A stretch of 64,000 nucleotides of DNA from Bacteroidetes bacterium UKL13-3 (GTDB lineage Bacteria; Bacteroidota; Bacteroidia; UKL13-3), in NCBI GenBank assembly GCA_001602415.1, contig CP012155.1:1844718-1908717 (forward strand), given 5' to 3'. Made by a program: the position numbers and the translations under genes. Below the pieces are notes generated by a model. That model made no database searches. It was not told the origin of the DNA and was given only the letters and a program-made list of their open reading frames with translations. This document shows, piece by piece, positions 51,047 to 57,601 of the stretch. How positions within the stretch are numbered: position 1 is the stretch's first letter; every line of letters begins with the position of its first letter.

Positions 51047-52483
51047 TTATCCCAAACTCTTAATCTCACTCACCAGTTGTGTAAGTGCTTTTTTCGCATC
51101 ACCAAACAACATACTTGTTTTAGGTTTGAAGAATAATTCGTTTTCGATACCGGCATAACCGGCTTTCATTGAGCGCTTGTTTACAATTACATTGGTGGCA
51201 TTCTCAACCTCCAAAATAGGCATTCCATAAATAGGAGAATTAGGATCGGTTTTAGCCGCAGGGTTCACCACATCATTTGCTCCCACAACCAATACCACAT
51301 CAGTTGTGTTAAACTCCGGATTTATTTCTTCCATCTCCACTAACTTATCATAGCTCACATTACTTTCGGCAAGTAATACATTCATATGCCCTGGCATACG
51401 ACCGGCAACAGGGTGAATAGCATACTTCACTTCTACTCCTTCTTTCTCCAACAATTCTTCCAATTCGTGTACCACGTGTTGAGCCTGCGCAACGGCTAAT
51501 CCATATCCAGGAACAATCACAACCTTCTTAGCATATTTCATCAAAATAGCGGCATCACTTGCCGTAATTTCTTTTGTTGACCCTTGGAAAGATGATGAGG
51601 TCGCGGCCTCACCTTTTGCTCCACCGAAATTACCAATCAATACATTTAACAAAGAACGGTTCATCGCCTTACACATCACCATCGTTAGTAAGGTTCCAGC
51701 ACTACCCACCAAAATACCTCCTACCAACATCACTTTGTTATCGTATAAAAATCCACCACAAGCCGCTGCTACTCCTGTAAACGAGTTAAGCAATGAAATT
51801 ACCACCGGCATATCGGCTCCTCCAATTGGCAATACAAATAAAATTCCATAAACGAGTGACAAGGCCAATACCGCGTAGAACATATTTGCATCAACATTCA
51901 CCACGGCCAATACTGCTAGTACAATAATCACCAACATCAAACCAATATTGATAAACTGCTGCGCGTTAAAGGATTTATCTTTTACCTTACCACTTAGTTT
52001 TCCATATGCAATAATACTTCCAGCAAACGAAACCGAACCAATAATCATTCCGATTAAAATTGTAGTTAACTCACCTTTGGGAATAAGTGTCGCGCTATTT
52101 ACAACAGCGTTATAAAAATCATTGTGAGAAGCATCAGTTAAATGTTGAAACTCAATTACGGAAATTAACATGGCACAAGCACCACCCATACCATTAAATA
52201 AACTCACCATCTCGGGCATAGCAGTCATTTGAACACGCTTGGCGGCAATCCATCCCACAACAGTACCCAACATCAATCCTCCAAAAATAAGCGGTAAATT
52301 TTTAAGGTGATTGCCAGATGCATCTGTGTACAAAAAGATGGTACCAAAAATGGCAATCACCATTCCAAATGCTGCAATTAAGTTTCCTTTGCGCGCGCTG
52401 GCCGGATTACCAAGCATTTTCAAACCTAGAATAAATGTGGTTGATGCAATGAGGTAAATGATTTCTAAAATATATTTTGTCAT
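51047..52483 (-). CDS. pntB: NAD(P) transhydrogenase subunit beta
   Basis: A 478-residue membrane protein with about nine helices (domain II) and a C-terminal NADP-binding domain III. Motifs of dIII: VVIVPGYGLAVAQAQ, VAGRMPGHMNVLLAE and LVVGANDVVNPAAK. With PntA1 and PntA2 it couples proton entry to NADPH formation from NADH. It is the last gene of the operon on the minus strand, 80 bp after a broken four-helix-bundle gene. Confidence 0.96.
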   Translation of the reverse strand: MTKYILEIIYLIASTTFILGLKMLGNPASARKGNLIAAFGMVIAIFGTIFLYTDASGNHLKNLPLIFGGLMLGTVVGWIAAKRVQMTAMPEMVSLFNGMGGACAMLISVIEFQHLTDASHNDFYNAVVNSATLIPKGELTTILIGMIIGSVSFAGSIIAYGKLSGKVKDKSFNAQQFINIGLMLVIIVLAVLAVVNVDANMFYAVLALSLVYGILFVLPIGGADMPVVISLLNSFTGVAAACGGFLYDNKVMLVGGILVGSAGTLLTMVMCKAMNRSLLNVLIGNFGGAKGEAATSSSFQGSTKEITASDAAILMKYAKKVVIVPGYGLAVAQAQHVVHELEELLEKEGVEVKYAIHPVAGRMPGHMNVLLAESNVSYDKLVEMEEINPEFNTTDVVLVVGANDVVNPAAKTDPNSPIYGMPILEVENATNVIVNKRSMKAGYAGIENELFFKPKTSMLFGDAKKALTQLVSEIKSLG

Positions 52484-52563
52484 AGTTTGAATTTTAGGTT
52501 CATTTCAATTTATCCAAATTCGAATACTGAAATCCGAAATTCGAAAGAAAGAGAAAATAATTT

Positions 52564-52928
52564 TTATTTTGTTTGTTTCAATTTTTTAAGAATAGACCCC
52601 AAAATTAATATTAGCTCATTTGCTTCCGTTATTAGGTTAGTTCTTTCTGTTTCCAACTCCAATTTAGATTCTGTGTCTAGTAATCTCAACCAAAATTTAC
52701 TTTCTTTCGACTCCTTTCTACAGATTCTTATCTTCATTAACTTATCCTTCTCTCCTAAGCTATCATTTGCTTCTATATAATTTGCTCCAACAGAACCAGA
52801 AGATCGAATTACTTGTTTACCATCCTCCATATTAGCAATAGTTTTAGTTAAACTCTTCACGAATATCCTTACCTGCTGGGCAAAATCAAATGTTCTCTCT
52901 TTAAATTATACGTTTTGGGGCTTATCAT
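52564..52928 (-). pseudogene. Four-helix-bundle (23S rRNA IVS-type) protein, frameshifted
   Basis: The 98 residues from GTG 52860 carry the family core (TIANMEDGKQVIRSSGSVGA, NYIEANDSLGEKDKL, FWLRLLDTES). The expected N-terminus lies upstream in another frame: ATG at 52928 gives MISPKTYNLK, and after one frame shift the sequence continues ERTFDFAQQVRIFV into the body. The shift is at the T run 52900-52902 (plus strand); one more T there would restore a 121-residue protein of normal length. No ATG exists in the body frame. It lies inside the pnt operon. Confidence 0.85.
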
Positions 52929-53002
52929 AAAATAGGACTTTTATTTCATTCTCTTTTCCTTCATTACATTTTTTCGAATTTTATTATTCGAATTTCCCTC
53001 CT

Positions 53003-53305
53003 CTATGATTTTTTCTTTTTAAACATTTCCAACATACGGTCGGTAACCACAAAACCACCTACCACGTTTAACGTTCCCAATACAACTGCAAAAAAGCCTA
53101 GAATTAAGGATGCCATGTGCTCTGCTTGCCCCATAACAATGATGGATCCAATGATTACCACACCATGAATGGCATTGGCACCGCTCATGAGTGGAGTATG
53201 CAATACAGAAGGAACATGTCCGATAAGTTCAATACCCACAAAAATCATTAAGATAATGAGGTATAACATTTCCTTATTGTCAGAAATAAATGCTAGTATG
53301 TTCAT
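53003..53305 (-). CDS. pntA2: NAD(P) transhydrogenase subunit alpha, part 2 (membrane)
   Basis: A 100-residue protein with three hydrophobic helices, matching the separate membrane subunit of three-gene bacterial transhydrogenases (the C-terminal part of E. coli PntA). The segment VPSVLHTPLMSGANAIHGVV is the family mark. It begins 2 nt after the hepT stop codon. Confidence 0.95.
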   Translation of the reverse strand: MNILAFISDNKEMLYLIILMIFVGIELIGHVPSVLHTPLMSGANAIHGVVIIGSIIVMGQAEHMASLILGFFAVVLGTLNVVGGFVVTDRMLEMFKKKKS

Positions 53306-53307
53306 AA

Positions 53308-53646
53308 TTATATATTAATTGTTAAAAGTTGTTGTTTTAATACTGGCAAATAATTTTTATACGTATCGTATACTGTTTCATAGCTGACCCCAAAGTATTC
53401 ATGAACCAAAATATTACGCATTCCTTTTATTTCATTCCATTGGATTGTGTTATGTTGTTCCTTTAGCGTATCAGAAATATGCATTGATGCTTCACCTATA
53501 ATTTCAAATAATTTCACACTAGCAAAACGCTCTGCCACAGTTGAAATAAATTCATCATAGTTTTTATCCCCGATAACAATCTCTAAATCTCTGATTGCAT
53601 CTAACATGTGACCTATTCTCTCGTTATCACCAAGCTTATCTTTCAT
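53308..53646 (-). CDS. hepT: HepT-like toxin (HEPN, DUF86)
   Basis: A 112-residue helical protein of the HEPN RNase superfamily. The catalytic R-x4-H-x-Y motif is intact in GMRNILVHEYFGVSYE. In the MntA/HepT systems HepT is an mRNA or tRNA nuclease, silenced by AMP transfer to its Tyr from the MntA partner. It overlaps the end of mntA by 11 bp and ends 2 nt before pntA2, so it is read as part of the pnt transcript. Confidence 0.92.
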   Translation of the reverse strand: MKDKLGDNERIGHMLDAIRDLEIVIGDKNYDEFISTVAERFASVKLFEIIGEASMHISDTLKEQHNTIQWNEIKGMRNILVHEYFGVSYETVYDTYKNYLPVLKQQLLTINI

Positions 53647-53920
53647 GTATCAATATTTTTTCCGCGTCAACATATGGCTTAATCCGACTAGACAACCCGC
53701 TATGAGGCACAATATCAACCTTTTCTCCAATTAACTCCGCCAAATCATTAATAAATTTAGCATGATCAATAAGGGTTATGCCTCGCTCGAAATCAACCAA
53801 CACATCTACATCATTATAATATTTTTCACCTCTTGCGAATGAGCCAAACAAGTAAACACTTTTTACAGGTTTATCTGTAAAATAGTCTTTGATGATTGAG
53901 ATTATTTCATCCCTTTTCAT
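53636..53920 (-). CDS. mntA: MntA-like nucleotidyltransferase antitoxin
   Basis: A 94-residue minimal nucleotidyltransferase. The active site is YLFGSFARGEKYYNDVDVLVDF, a GS-x9-D-x-D motif (nine by my count; ten is typical), with a later Asp in EKVDIVPHSG. In described systems this enzyme adds AMP to HepT and blocks its RNase. The ATG at 53920 shares one base with the pntA1 stop codon (TAATG), which fixes the start and makes translation coupled. Confidence 0.92.
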   Translation of the reverse strand: MKRDEIISIIKDYFTDKPVKSVYLFGSFARGEKYYNDVDVLVDFERGITLIDHAKFINDLAELIGEKVDIVPHSGLSSRIKPYVDAEKILIHER

Positions 53921-55044
53921 TATGCTGTTGCTGTTTGTAAATTTGGGTGAACTATTTTTTGCTGATGAGTGATTAATGTGCCTTTGGTAATTTCCTCTTC
54001 CAATTCCCATTTCATGCCATCTTTGTTAGATAGATGTGTTAGAAAGTTATATATATTCTTGGCATACAACTCACTTGCATTTTGAGCAAGGGTACTCGGT
54101 AAATTGCTTTGGCCCACAATGGTTACTCCATTTTTAACAACGGTTTTATCCAATTCACTTAATGCACAATTACCACCCTGTTCTACAGCCATATCAACAA
54201 TAACACTACCCAATTTCATCAACTTTACCTGATCTTCTGTAATTAAAACAGGAGCTTTTTTACCGGCAACCAAAGCGGTAGTAATTACCAAATCGGCTTG
54301 TGCTAAACTTTTATTTACCGCCTCTTTTTGTTTGGCTAAATATTCTTCCGAAACTTCTTTAGCATAACCGCCTTCCACTTTCACACCCTCTCCTTTTACT
54401 TCAATAAACTTTCCGCCAAGCGATTCCACTTGCTCTTTTGTTTCGGGACGAACATCAGTAACTTCAACAATAGCACCTAACCGTTTGGCTGTAGCAACGG
54501 CCTGCAATCCGGCAACTCCGGCACCAAAAATTAATACCCGCGAAGGGGTAATCGTTCCGGCTGCTGTCATCATTAACGGAAATATTTTCCCCATCACATC
54601 AGCTCCCATAATCACTGCTTTATAACCTGCCAAATTATTCTGAGAACTCAATGCATCCATACTTTGTGCACGTGAAATGCGTGGCATGGCATCCATTGAA
54701 AAAGCACTGATTCCTTTTTGTGATAGCTCTCTAACTAACTCCGGATTAAACGAATGATAGATATACGAAATCAATATAGTACCCGATTTCATCATTGCAA
54801 TTTCACCAGTTGATGGTGCATTTACCATAATCACAACATCGGCTTGTGCAAGCAATTCGGACTTTGATGAGATCAAAGTACAACCTGCTTGTTGGTAGGC
54901 ATTATCGGAGAAGTTTGAAGTATATCCTGCCTGATTTTCAACCAAACAAACATAACCTTGTTTGATAAATTGTTGCGCAACAGCAGGAGTTAATGCAACA
55001 CGTTTTTCGCCCGACTTTGTTTCTTTTACAACAGCTATTTTCAT
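53920..55044 (-). CDS. pntA1: NAD(P) transhydrogenase subunit alpha, part 1
   Basis: A 374-residue soluble NAD(H)-binding subunit (domain I) related to alanine dehydrogenase. It begins MKIAVVKETKSGEKRVALTP; the dinucleotide loop is VLIFGAGVAGLQAVATAK, followed by VEVTDVRPETKEQVESLGG. It is the first gene of the pnt operon, and the left end of the first IS30 element lies 181 bp before its start codon. Confidence 0.96.
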   Translation of the reverse strand: MKIAVVKETKSGEKRVALTPAVAQQFIKQGYVCLVENQAGYTSNFSDNAYQQAGCTLISSKSELLAQADVVIMVNAPSTGEIAMMKSGTILISYIYHSFNPELVRELSQKGISAFSMDAMPRISRAQSMDALSSQNNLAGYKAVIMGADVMGKIFPLMMTAAGTITPSRVLIFGAGVAGLQAVATAKRLGAIVEVTDVRPETKEQVESLGGKFIEVKGEGVKVEGGYAKEVSEEYLAKQKEAVNKSLAQADLVITTALVAGKKAPVLITEDQVKLMKLGSVIVDMAVEQGGNCALSELDKTVVKNGVTIVGQSNLPSTLAQNASELYAKNIYNFLTHLSNKDGMKWELEEEITKGTLITHQQKIVHPNLQTATA

Positions 55045-55298: not shown

Positions 55299-55326
55299 AC
55301 CAAGTAGTGCAATCTTTGGATTGTCT

Positions 55327-56313
55327 ATGTCAAAAAATTACAAACAGCTCAGTTTAGAGCAAAGATATCAGATTGAATGTTTAATAAAAGCAGGGTTCAG
55401 TCAAAAAAAGATCGCAGAGCAATTAAACGTTCATGCATCAACTATAAGTAGAGAGCTAAAACGTAATATCGCAAAGCGAGGAAAAACGGCAGGAGAGTAT
55501 ATGGCTCTAAATGCACAGCGTAAAACAAATATTAGACATTTAGAAAAGCCTAAATATGAAGTATTTATAAGTAAAATGAAGCTTACCATTAGTAGCTATA
55601 TTAAAAATGAAAGATGGAGTCCTGAATTGATAAGTAACTCCATTAACGATATGGTGAGCCACGAGCGAATCTATCAATGGATATGGGAGTGTAAGCATAC
55701 TAATACGAAAGAAACTAAGCCATATAAGAAGCTGTATCAATATTTAAAGCATGGTAAAAGAAGGCGAAAACGAGGCAATAGAAAAGATAGTAGAGGCGTT
55801 ATTTTAGATAGAACCCCAATAGCTAAACGCCCAGCAATTGTAGCTCAAAGAAAGCGAATAGGAGATATTGAAGTGGATTTAATGATGGGAAGAAATCATA
55901 AAGGAGCATTATTAGTTATGACAGACAGAGCTACTTTACATACCAGACTCAAAAAACTAACGGCAAAGGATAGCAATCAAGTTTATCAAGCCATTATAAG
56001 TAACCTAATGAGGAATAAATACAAGCCTAAAACGTTGACTTTTGATAACGATAAAGCTTTTAGTTGTCACACTAAGGTTGCTAATCGAATGGATGTAAAA
56101 ACTTTTTTCACTAGACCATATACAAGCCAAGACAAGGGAACAGTTGAAAATAGAATTGGGGTGATAAGACGGTTTTTTCCTAAGAAAACAGACCTTACAT
56201 TTGTATCAAATAAACAAGTGCTTGAAGTTGAGCGTAAAATCAATAACAGGCCAATAAGAAAATTTAATTATTTAACCGCTAATCAAGTGCTACTAAAAAA
56301 ATTGCACTTATGA
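55327..56313 (+). CDS. IS30-family transposase, copy 1
   Basis: A 328-residue DDE transposase. The N-terminal helix-turn-helix is LSLEQRYQIECLIKAGFSQK plus the KIAEQLNVHASTISREL helix pair. The catalytic core has Asp in IGDIEVDLMMG, Asp in LTFDNDKAF and Glu in GTVENRIGVIRRFFPK, the IS30 DDE triad. The ATG at 55327 is preferred over a TTG two codons upstream. Complete and probably active. It differs from copy 2 at six residues, among them GFSQ versus GLSQ and KGTVE versus KGIVE. Confidence 0.93.
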   Translation: MSKNYKQLSLEQRYQIECLIKAGFSQKKIAEQLNVHASTISRELKRNIAKRGKTAGEYMALNAQRKTNIRHLEKPKYEVFISKMKLTISSYIKNERWSPELISNSINDMVSHERIYQWIWECKHTNTKETKPYKKLYQYLKHGKRRRKRGNRKDSRGVILDRTPIAKRPAIVAQRKRIGDIEVDLMMGRNHKGALLVMTDRATLHTRLKKLTAKDSNQVYQAIISNLMRNKYKPKTLTFDNDKAFSCHTKVANRMDVKTFFTRPYTSQDKGTVENRIGVIRRFFPKKTDLTFVSNKQVLEVERKINNRPIRKFNYLTANQVLLKKLHL

Positions 56314-56506: not shown

Positions 56507-57601
56507 GTAAGTTCAAGTCATAAGTGCAATTTTTTTAGTAGCACTTGATTAGCGGTTAAATAATTAAATTTTCTTATTGGCCTGTTATTGATTTTACGCT
56601 CAACTTCAAGCACTTGTTTATTTGATACAAATGTAAGGTCTGTTTTCTTAGGAAAAAACCGTCTTATCACCCCAATTCTATTTTCAACTATTCCCTTGTC
56701 TTGGCTTGTATATGGTCTAGTGAAAAAAGTTTTTACATCCATTCGATTAGCAACCTTAGTGTGACAACTAAAAGCTTTATCGTTATCAAAAGTCAACGTT
56801 TTAGGCTTGTATTTATTCATCATTAGGTTACTTATAATGGCTTGATAAACTTGATTGCTATCCTTTGCCGTTAGTTTTTTGAGTCTGGTATGTAAAGTAG
56901 CTCTGTCTGTCATAACTAATAATGCTCCTTTATGATTTCTTCCCATCATTAAATCCACTTCAATATCTCCTATTCGCTTTCTTTGAGCTACAATTGCTGG
57001 GCGTTTAGCTATTGGGGTTCTATCTAAAATAACGCCTCTACTATCTTTTCTATTGCATCGTTTTCGCCTTCTTTTACCATGCTTTAAATATTGATACAGC
57101 TTCTTATATGGCTTAGTTTCTTTCGTATTAGTATGCTTACATTCCCATATCCATTGATAGATTCGCTCGTGGCTCACCATATCGTTAATGGAGTTACTTA
57201 TCAATTCAGGACTCCATCTTTCATTTTTAATATAGCTACTAATGGTAAGCTTCATTTCACTTGTAAATACTTCATATTTAGGCTTTTCTAAATGTCTAAT
57301 ATTTGTTTTACGCTGTGCATTTAGAGCCATATACTCTCCTGCCGTTTTTCCTCGCTTTGCGATATTACGTTTTAGCTCTCTACTTATAGTTGATGCATGA
57401 ACGTTTAATTGCTCTGCGATCTTTTTTTGACTGAGCCCTGCTTTTATTAAACATTCAATCTGATATCTTTGCTCTAAACTGAGCTGTTTGTAATTTTTTG
57501 ACATAGACAATCCAAAGATTGCACTACTTGGTCAAAAGAAAAAAGCCCTCAAAAGCTTTTTTCTTTTGTTTCAAAAATTGCACTTATTTGTTGAACTCAG
57601 C
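56507..57601 (-). mobile_element. IS30-family insertion sequence, copy 2 (inverted)
   Basis: The same element in the opposite orientation, 1095 bp; its A/T run near the outer end is 5 bp shorter than in copy 1. Terminal repeats as in copy 1. ATT stands on both sides (56504-56506 and 57602-57604), which fits a 3-bp target duplication; ATT also stands to the left of copy 1, so the pair as a whole is flanked by ATT as well. Confidence 0.88.
56518..57504 (-). CDS. IS30-family transposase, copy 2
   Basis: A 328-residue copy of the transposase described for copy 1, with all three catalytic acidic residues retained. Six substitutions separate the proteins: Phe/Leu, Ile/Thr, Lys/Glu, Gly/Cys, Arg/Met and Thr/Ile. 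The two genes converge. Confidence 0.93.
   Translation of the reverse strand: MSKNYKQLSLEQRYQIECLIKAGLSQKKIAEQLNVHASTISRELKRNIAKRGKTAGEYMALNAQRKTNIRHLEKPKYEVFTSEMKLTISSYIKNERWSPELISNSINDMVSHERIYQWIWECKHTNTKETKPYKKLYQYLKHGKRRRKRCNRKDSRGVILDRTPIAKRPAIVAQRKRIGDIEVDLMMGRNHKGALLVMTDRATLHTRLKKLTAKDSNQVYQAIISNLMMNKYKPKTLTFDNDKAFSCHTKVANRMDVKTFFTRPYTSQDKGIVENRIGVIRRFFPKKTDLTFVSNKQVLEVERKINNRPIRKFNYLTANQVLLKKLHL

Follow-up and report, generated by a model that had tools for sequence, protein, structure and literature searches.

A HEPN/MNT toxin-antitoxin pair within the transhydrogenase (pnt) operon of Bacteroidetes bacterium UKL13-3 and repeated insertion of small helical-bundle genes into the gaps of this operon

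The stretch of DNA analysed here (the window; 64,000 nt from Bacteroidetes bacterium UKL13-3, genome G000 of our set) carries on its minus strand an operon for the proton-translocating transhydrogenase with the gene order pntA1, mntA, hepT, pntA2, a four-helix-bundle gene, and pntB. The first gene, pntA1 (53920..55044), codes for the NAD(H)-binding alpha subunit (Pfam AlaDh_PNT_N, E 2e-43, and AlaDh_PNT_C, E 9e-67; NCBIfam NF006942 above its cut-off). The membrane part of the alpha subunit is encoded by pntA2 (53003..53305; Pfam PNTB_4TM, E 6.5e-32) and the beta subunit by the last gene, pntB (51047..52483; Pfam PNTB, E 3e-182). The gap between pntA1 and pntA2 is filled by mntA (53636..53920), which codes for a 94-aa minimal nucleotidyltransferase antitoxin with a GSX9DXD motif (Pfam NTP_transf_2, E 4e-12), and by hepT (53308..53646), which codes for a 112-aa HEPN RNase toxin with an RX4HXY motif (Pfam HepT-like, E 5e-24). 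Directly upstream of the operon lie two near-identical genes for 330-aa transposases, which we take to be IS30-like, in opposite orientation (55321-56313, plus strand; 56518-57510, minus strand).

The junctions are tight. The stop codon of pntA1 (TAA, 53922-53920) shares base 53920 with the start codon of mntA, giving TAATG and a 1-nt overlap. The reading frames of mntA (53920-53636) and hepT (53646-53308) overlap by 11 nt, and hepT ends at 53308, 2 nt before the start of pntA2 at 53305. These three distances had been given in the initial annotation and proved to be exact, and its description of a toxin-antitoxin (TA)-type pair built into the pnt operon by overlapping or abutting reading frames is supported. 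In the whole single-contig genome (3,236,529 bases), the hepT of the pnt operon is the only HepT-like gene.

The pair shows the defining features of the HEPN/MNT superfamily (PF01934 + PF01909): a HEPN-domain protein is encoded beside a minimal nucleotidyltransferase by adjacent, overlapping reading frames, and the antitoxin gene comes first. Pfam scores are 84.8 bits for HepT-like (cut-off 23.5) and 46.7 bits for NTP_transf_2 (cut-off 21). The published motifs are GSX10DXD for MntA and RX4HXY for HepT (PMC7641770). The latter is present as RNILVHEY (R77, H82, Y84). The catalytic residues of MntA are all kept (G26, S27, D37, D39, plus D69), but in its motif region, GSFARGEKYYNDVD, GS and DXD are spaced by only 9 residues. 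The earlier statement that the active-site motifs are intact therefore holds for the catalytic residues of both proteins but not for the MntA spacing, which is 9 as compared to 10 in the published motif. By the strict motif, the pair is, as read from its sequence, a short-loop variant. The same short loop is found in the pnt-located pairs of G011 and G438 and in a pair of G027. When the NCBIfam equivalog models for HepT/MntA (NF047751/NF047752, cut-off 60 bits) were applied, both proteins scored below the cut-off (MntA_antitoxin: 34.4 bits, E 1.6e-8; HepT_toxin: 35.5 bits, E 7e-9).

A sequence-based search for solved relatives of HepT gave none. The AlphaFold model of HepT (pLDDT 91) has 7ae2_A as its best PDB match in Foldseek (E 2.8e-3, prob 1.00), and its top 15 PDB matches are all HEPN/MNT TA entries with prob 1.00. 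The best fold matches are from the Aphanizomenon flos-aquae HEPN/MNT system (PDB 7AE2, 7AE6, 7AE8, 7AE9; prob 1.00, TM 0.6-0.7), the toxin chains of which have about 137-152 residues as compared to 112 in the pnt-located HepT. For the AlphaFold model of MntA (pLDDT 95), the best match is 7bxo_A from the Shewanella oneidensis complex (E 4e-6). In the predicted models, toxin and antitoxin thus have the folds of solved HEPN/MNT complexes.

Among predicted prokaryotic TA systems, HEPN/MNT has been described as the most abundant, and in the S. oneidensis pair SO_3166/SO_3165 the antitoxin MntA neutralises HepT by transferring AMP from ATP to the tyrosine of the RX4HXY motif (PMC7641770). The pnt-located pair resembles this system in its antitoxin-toxin order, overlapping reading frames, RX4HXY toxin, nucleotidyltransferase antitoxin with GS...DXD and a third Asp, and in predicted folds that match the solved complexes. 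It differs in the shorter MntA loop and in that both of its proteins stay below the equivalog cut-offs, and because of these two differences its activity is not certain. By superfamily, the pair is HEPN/MNT (type VII-like), and to judge from sequence and models it should work like type VII systems.

A further difference concerns the sequence upstream of the antitoxin gene. In S. oneidensis, the pair is served by a promoter of its own, located 30 nt upstream of the antitoxin gene and bound by the antitoxin (PMC4621449). Upstream of the pnt-located mntA is the coding sequence of pntA1, and mechanical scans for sigma-70 and Bacteroidota -33/-7 promoters found no promoter-like sequence above shuffles in its last 600 nt; a pntA1-internal promoter of a kind that such scans cannot recognise is possible. 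Since nothing promoter-like rises above shuffles in pntA1, co-expression with pnt is the simplest inference: the pair would be transcribed by read-through from the pnt promoter. Translation of mntA may then occur by re-initiation at TAATG, followed by that of hepT via the 11-nt overlap, so that under this proposal the antitoxin would always be made together with the toxin. By analogy to S. oneidensis, MntA would move AMP from ATP onto Y84 of HepT and thereby block the RNase site, and the toxin would be set free upon failure of the antitoxin or of the AMP transfer. If any metabolic coupling exists, ATP as the AMP donor would be a likelier signal than NADPH or the proton gradient; nothing indicates that the pair senses either of the latter.

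TA modules that share an operon with host genes have precedents in mazEF, which lies beside relA in Escherichia coli and beside sigB in Staphylococcus aureus; for such operon-borne pairs, an additional promoter of their own is reported. The pnt pair is like the mazEF cases in sharing one operon with a host gene and unlike them in sitting amid the subunit genes of a single enzyme. A search of the literature library for descriptions of a pnt-located TA pair gave none.

The same arrangement occurs in relatives. The family was covered by a search of 58 relatives and then of all 64 family genomes. Within it, the pntA1-pntA2 gap holds mntA-hepT in G000, in G005 and G026 (both of genus g5), and in G011. 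Two more pnt-located pairs are found in other families of the class (G438 and G422). The pair is thus present at this site in five other genomes, and in three families in all, which rules out a one-off insertion in this strain, an outcome for which the initial annotation had allowed. From the pntA1 stop to mntA, the distance is -1 nt in G000, 2 nt in G005 and G026, 5 nt in G011 and G422, and 3 nt in G438; from hepT to pntA2, it is 2 nt in G000, 3 nt in G005, G026, and G422, 6 nt in G011, and 63 nt in G438. This 63-nt gap in G438 (L278) contains a perfect 16-nt inverted repeat, CCCGATAGCTATCGGG. Where the pair is absent, the empty pntA1-pntA2 gap measures 13 nt in G001, from the same genus as G000, and 41 nt in G017, a relative from g5. 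The arrangement is thus real, precise, and recurrent, and the pair is a TA pair of a known kind. In G027 (contig 12; L198, L225), the short-loop MntA-HepT pair is located about 6.5 kb upstream of the pnt operon, and it stands apart from the pnt pairs in the tree.

In the tree of joined MntA and HepT sequences, G000 groups with G011 (97/82) and these two with G438 (95/86), while the position of G005/G026 is not resolved. The pair of G422 is far off and groups with those of G043 and G068 (100/99). A single origin of all six pnt pairs is rejected by the AU test (p 1e-31); a clade of the five pairs without G422 is not rejected (p 0.43). The rejection of the clade of six means that the gap has been filled at least twice; the trees point to at least two independent insertions in the pntA1-pntA2 gap, perhaps three. 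G000, G011, and G438 form a supported pnt-located lineage, and the MntA nearest to that of G000 within the class sample is the pnt-located copy from G438. The pairs of this lineage could be old and vertically inherited with many losses, or they could have moved between lineages. There is no sign that pnt flanks were carried along with the pair, as in BLASTn comparison of G000 with G001, G002, and G024 the sequences to either side of the gap diverge to an ordinary degree (74-77%). For G422, comparison with its sister species G385 (flanks 89 and 85% identical) reveals 642 nt in place of a 12-nt empty gap, which marks this pair as a separate, clean insertion on sequence grounds. In genus g5, mntA and hepT show the signature of purifying selection: for G005 versus G026, the dN/dS values are 0.022/0.32 for hepT, 0.032/0.78 for mntA, and 0.026/0.63 for pntA2, which corresponds to ratios of about 0.07, about 0.04, and 0.04, respectively.

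The recurrence raises the question of whether the location has a meaning. The initial annotation had suggested that it may tie RNase activity to redox state or simply keep the operon from being lost. A functional tie to the transhydrogenase would mean that HepT follows pnt expression or the redox or energy state; cleavage of RNA upon failure of the NADPH supply or the proton gradient would be one example. Such a tie could account for a gap that has been filled in three families and at least twice independently, for the pnt-located lineage of G000, G011, and G438 with its nearest class-sample MntA again at pnt, and for the excess over chance: in the class sample of 395 genomes, with about 331 HepT matches and 238 PNTB_4TM-positive genomes, the pntA1-pntA2 gap holds at least four HepT genes (G000, G005, G422, G438), as compared to about 0.07 pairs expected, the latter being our own rough estimate from the number of HepT matches, the genomes with pnt, and about 3000 gene junctions per genome. 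However, the enrichment is only suggestive, because G422 is the sole surely independent insertion once the discovery lineage is left out, which makes for weak statistics. In addition, most relatives with pnt are devoid of the pair, a Pfam search found no sensing domain in the pair, there are no cysteines in either MntA or HepT, and the pnt gaps are also used by several types of an unrelated gene (see below). We thus consider a functional tie to be decidedly unlikely.

Placement inside operons is also found elsewhere. Of the 71 HEPN/MNT pairs that could be examined, 14 have co-directional genes flush against both ends, and these comprise 5 of the 6 pnt pairs as compared to 9 of the 65 non-pnt pairs (14%). 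Neighbours of the tightly placed pairs include NuoF in G024, thymidine kinase and a Mur ligase in G039, and, in G026, genes presumably for restriction-modification. The G024 pair (contig 12, L284; hepT at G024:C12:55381-55653) follows 5 nt after a gene with a NuoF C-terminal domain, so such a pair is present in another respiratory operon, too. Given the nine flush non-pnt pairs and their unrelated neighbours, residence within operons is a regular feature of such TA pairs. As equally tight placement is seen for pairs of this type in operons without a redox role (for example thymidine kinase-Mur ligase), location alone is no argument for such a role; together with the lack of cysteines, this leaves the proposed link of RNase activity to redox state unsupported, and we regard it as speculation. 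The idea that the pair protects pnt from loss fares no better: 62 of the 64 genomes in the family have pnt, most of them lack the pair, and addiction is thus not required for retention of the operon. G001, from the same genus as G000, likewise has pnt and no pair at that site.

We consider it rather likely that the pair is a complete HEPN/MNT cassette without a recognisable promoter, which resides in the pntA1-pntA2 gap and is carried as a passenger by an operon with steady expression. Points against this reading, which is drawn from sequence comparison, are that the repeated presence at pnt could mean a pnt-linked function, that the S. oneidensis pair has its own antitoxin-bound promoter (PMC4621449), and that the short MntA loop and the low equivalog scores set the pair apart. 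A promoterless-looking lineage that is kept by selection within an NADPH-making operon provides a natural test of selfish passengers against host service.

The pnt operon of the window contains a second insert, which was not part of the initial annotation. The pntA2-pntB gap carries a four-helix-bundle gene (52564..52902, minus strand) of the S23/IVS type (TIGR02436, 64.5 bits, cut-off 24; Pfam 23S_rRNA_IVP, E 3e-10). The gene is probably decaying, because it does not have a usual start: a stop codon immediately precedes FKERTFDFAQQ, and the earliest start is a GTG inside the gene, at 52860. The 519-nt gap (52484-53002, minus strand) folds into a panhandle (z = -2.4), with predicted arms at 52972..52995 (5') and 52516..52539 (3') according to the RNA fold and the flank duplex. 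The duplex of the two flanks has -33.4 kcal/mol, and none of 200 shuffles is as low.

By our count, four-helix-bundle genes occur in the two pnt gaps as 26 copies in 21 of 62 genomes and belong to five sequence types. These are 26 of the 259 four-helix-bundle matches in the family, with 7 copies between pntA1 and pntA2 and 19 between pntA2 and pntB. Inserts of this kind were recorded at loci L063, L070, L071, L173, L175, L179, and L188, and also at L190-L192, L194, L195, L198, L200, L202, and L203; named relatives that carry them include Agriterribacter humi and Niabella aurantiaca (L133, L138). Flank pairing beats nearly all shuffles in each of the 21 family inserts tested (at most 5 of 200 as low), the exact counts being rough because the shuffles preserve base composition only. 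For three four-helix-bundle inserts outside the family, flank pairing is not above shuffles. A single operon has thus repeatedly received small helical-bundle genes of two unrelated sorts, which is the more surprising regularity.

This regularity suggests that the pnt site itself is favoured, since several types of four-helix-bundle genes occupy the same gaps. The pnt gaps might be tolerant of insertions or attract them, being short and steadily transcribed and suffering little harm from an insert, with the TA nature of the pair almost incidental. The five sequence types among the 26 family copies and the G422 cassette, which cleanly replaces 12 nt, agree with this. The two sorts of insert differ at their ends, however: the seamless junctions of the TA cassette leave no room for terminal repeats; the flanks of the G438 cassette pair no better than shuffles; and the TA cassettes have neither panhandle ends, unlike the four-helix-bundle inserts, nor a target duplication, which leaves a common mechanism of insertion unsupported. 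As the primary explanation, we consider a site effect unlikely; it is compatible with the passenger reading that we prefer and differs from it mainly in emphasis.

Two further possibilities assign the inserts a role in the pnt message. The pair might have ceased to be a TA system and become a domesticated module for RNA processing, cutting or tuning the pnt mRNA in the pntA1-pntA2 interval, as HepT-type HEPN proteins are RNases and the same mRNA holds a second insert with predicted RNA panhandle ends; with catalytic residues of HepT and MntA as in ordinary TA pairs, nothing pointing to a target site in pnt, and most relatives having pnt without the pair, we judge this highly improbable. More broadly, small helical-bundle genes that act on RNA (HepT plus MntA and the S23/IVS type) might dock preferentially in pnt and serve it by setting message cutting and enzyme amount with the energy state, which we deem very unlikely. 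The passenger reading remains our preferred one for the TA pair.

The four-helix-bundle inserts resemble intervening sequences of rRNA genes. The ends of the latter pair and are cut by RNase III, and an S23 ORF is found in the 23S rRNA of Coxiella (PMC4990558). Common to both is a four-helix-bundle ORF between complementary ends with a long predicted stem. The 23S rRNA intervening sequences reside in rRNA genes and are removed by RNase III, whereas the pnt inserts reside in the gaps of a protein-coding operon. S23-type elements with this architecture in pnt gaps would extend such elements from rRNA genes to mRNA. G000 has other four-helix-bundle genes between co-directional genes (L083, L084, L085, L088), most of them with pairing flanks. 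At L088, the neighbours of which we take to be folD and queE, flank pairing reaches -65 kcal/mol as compared to -19 for shuffles.
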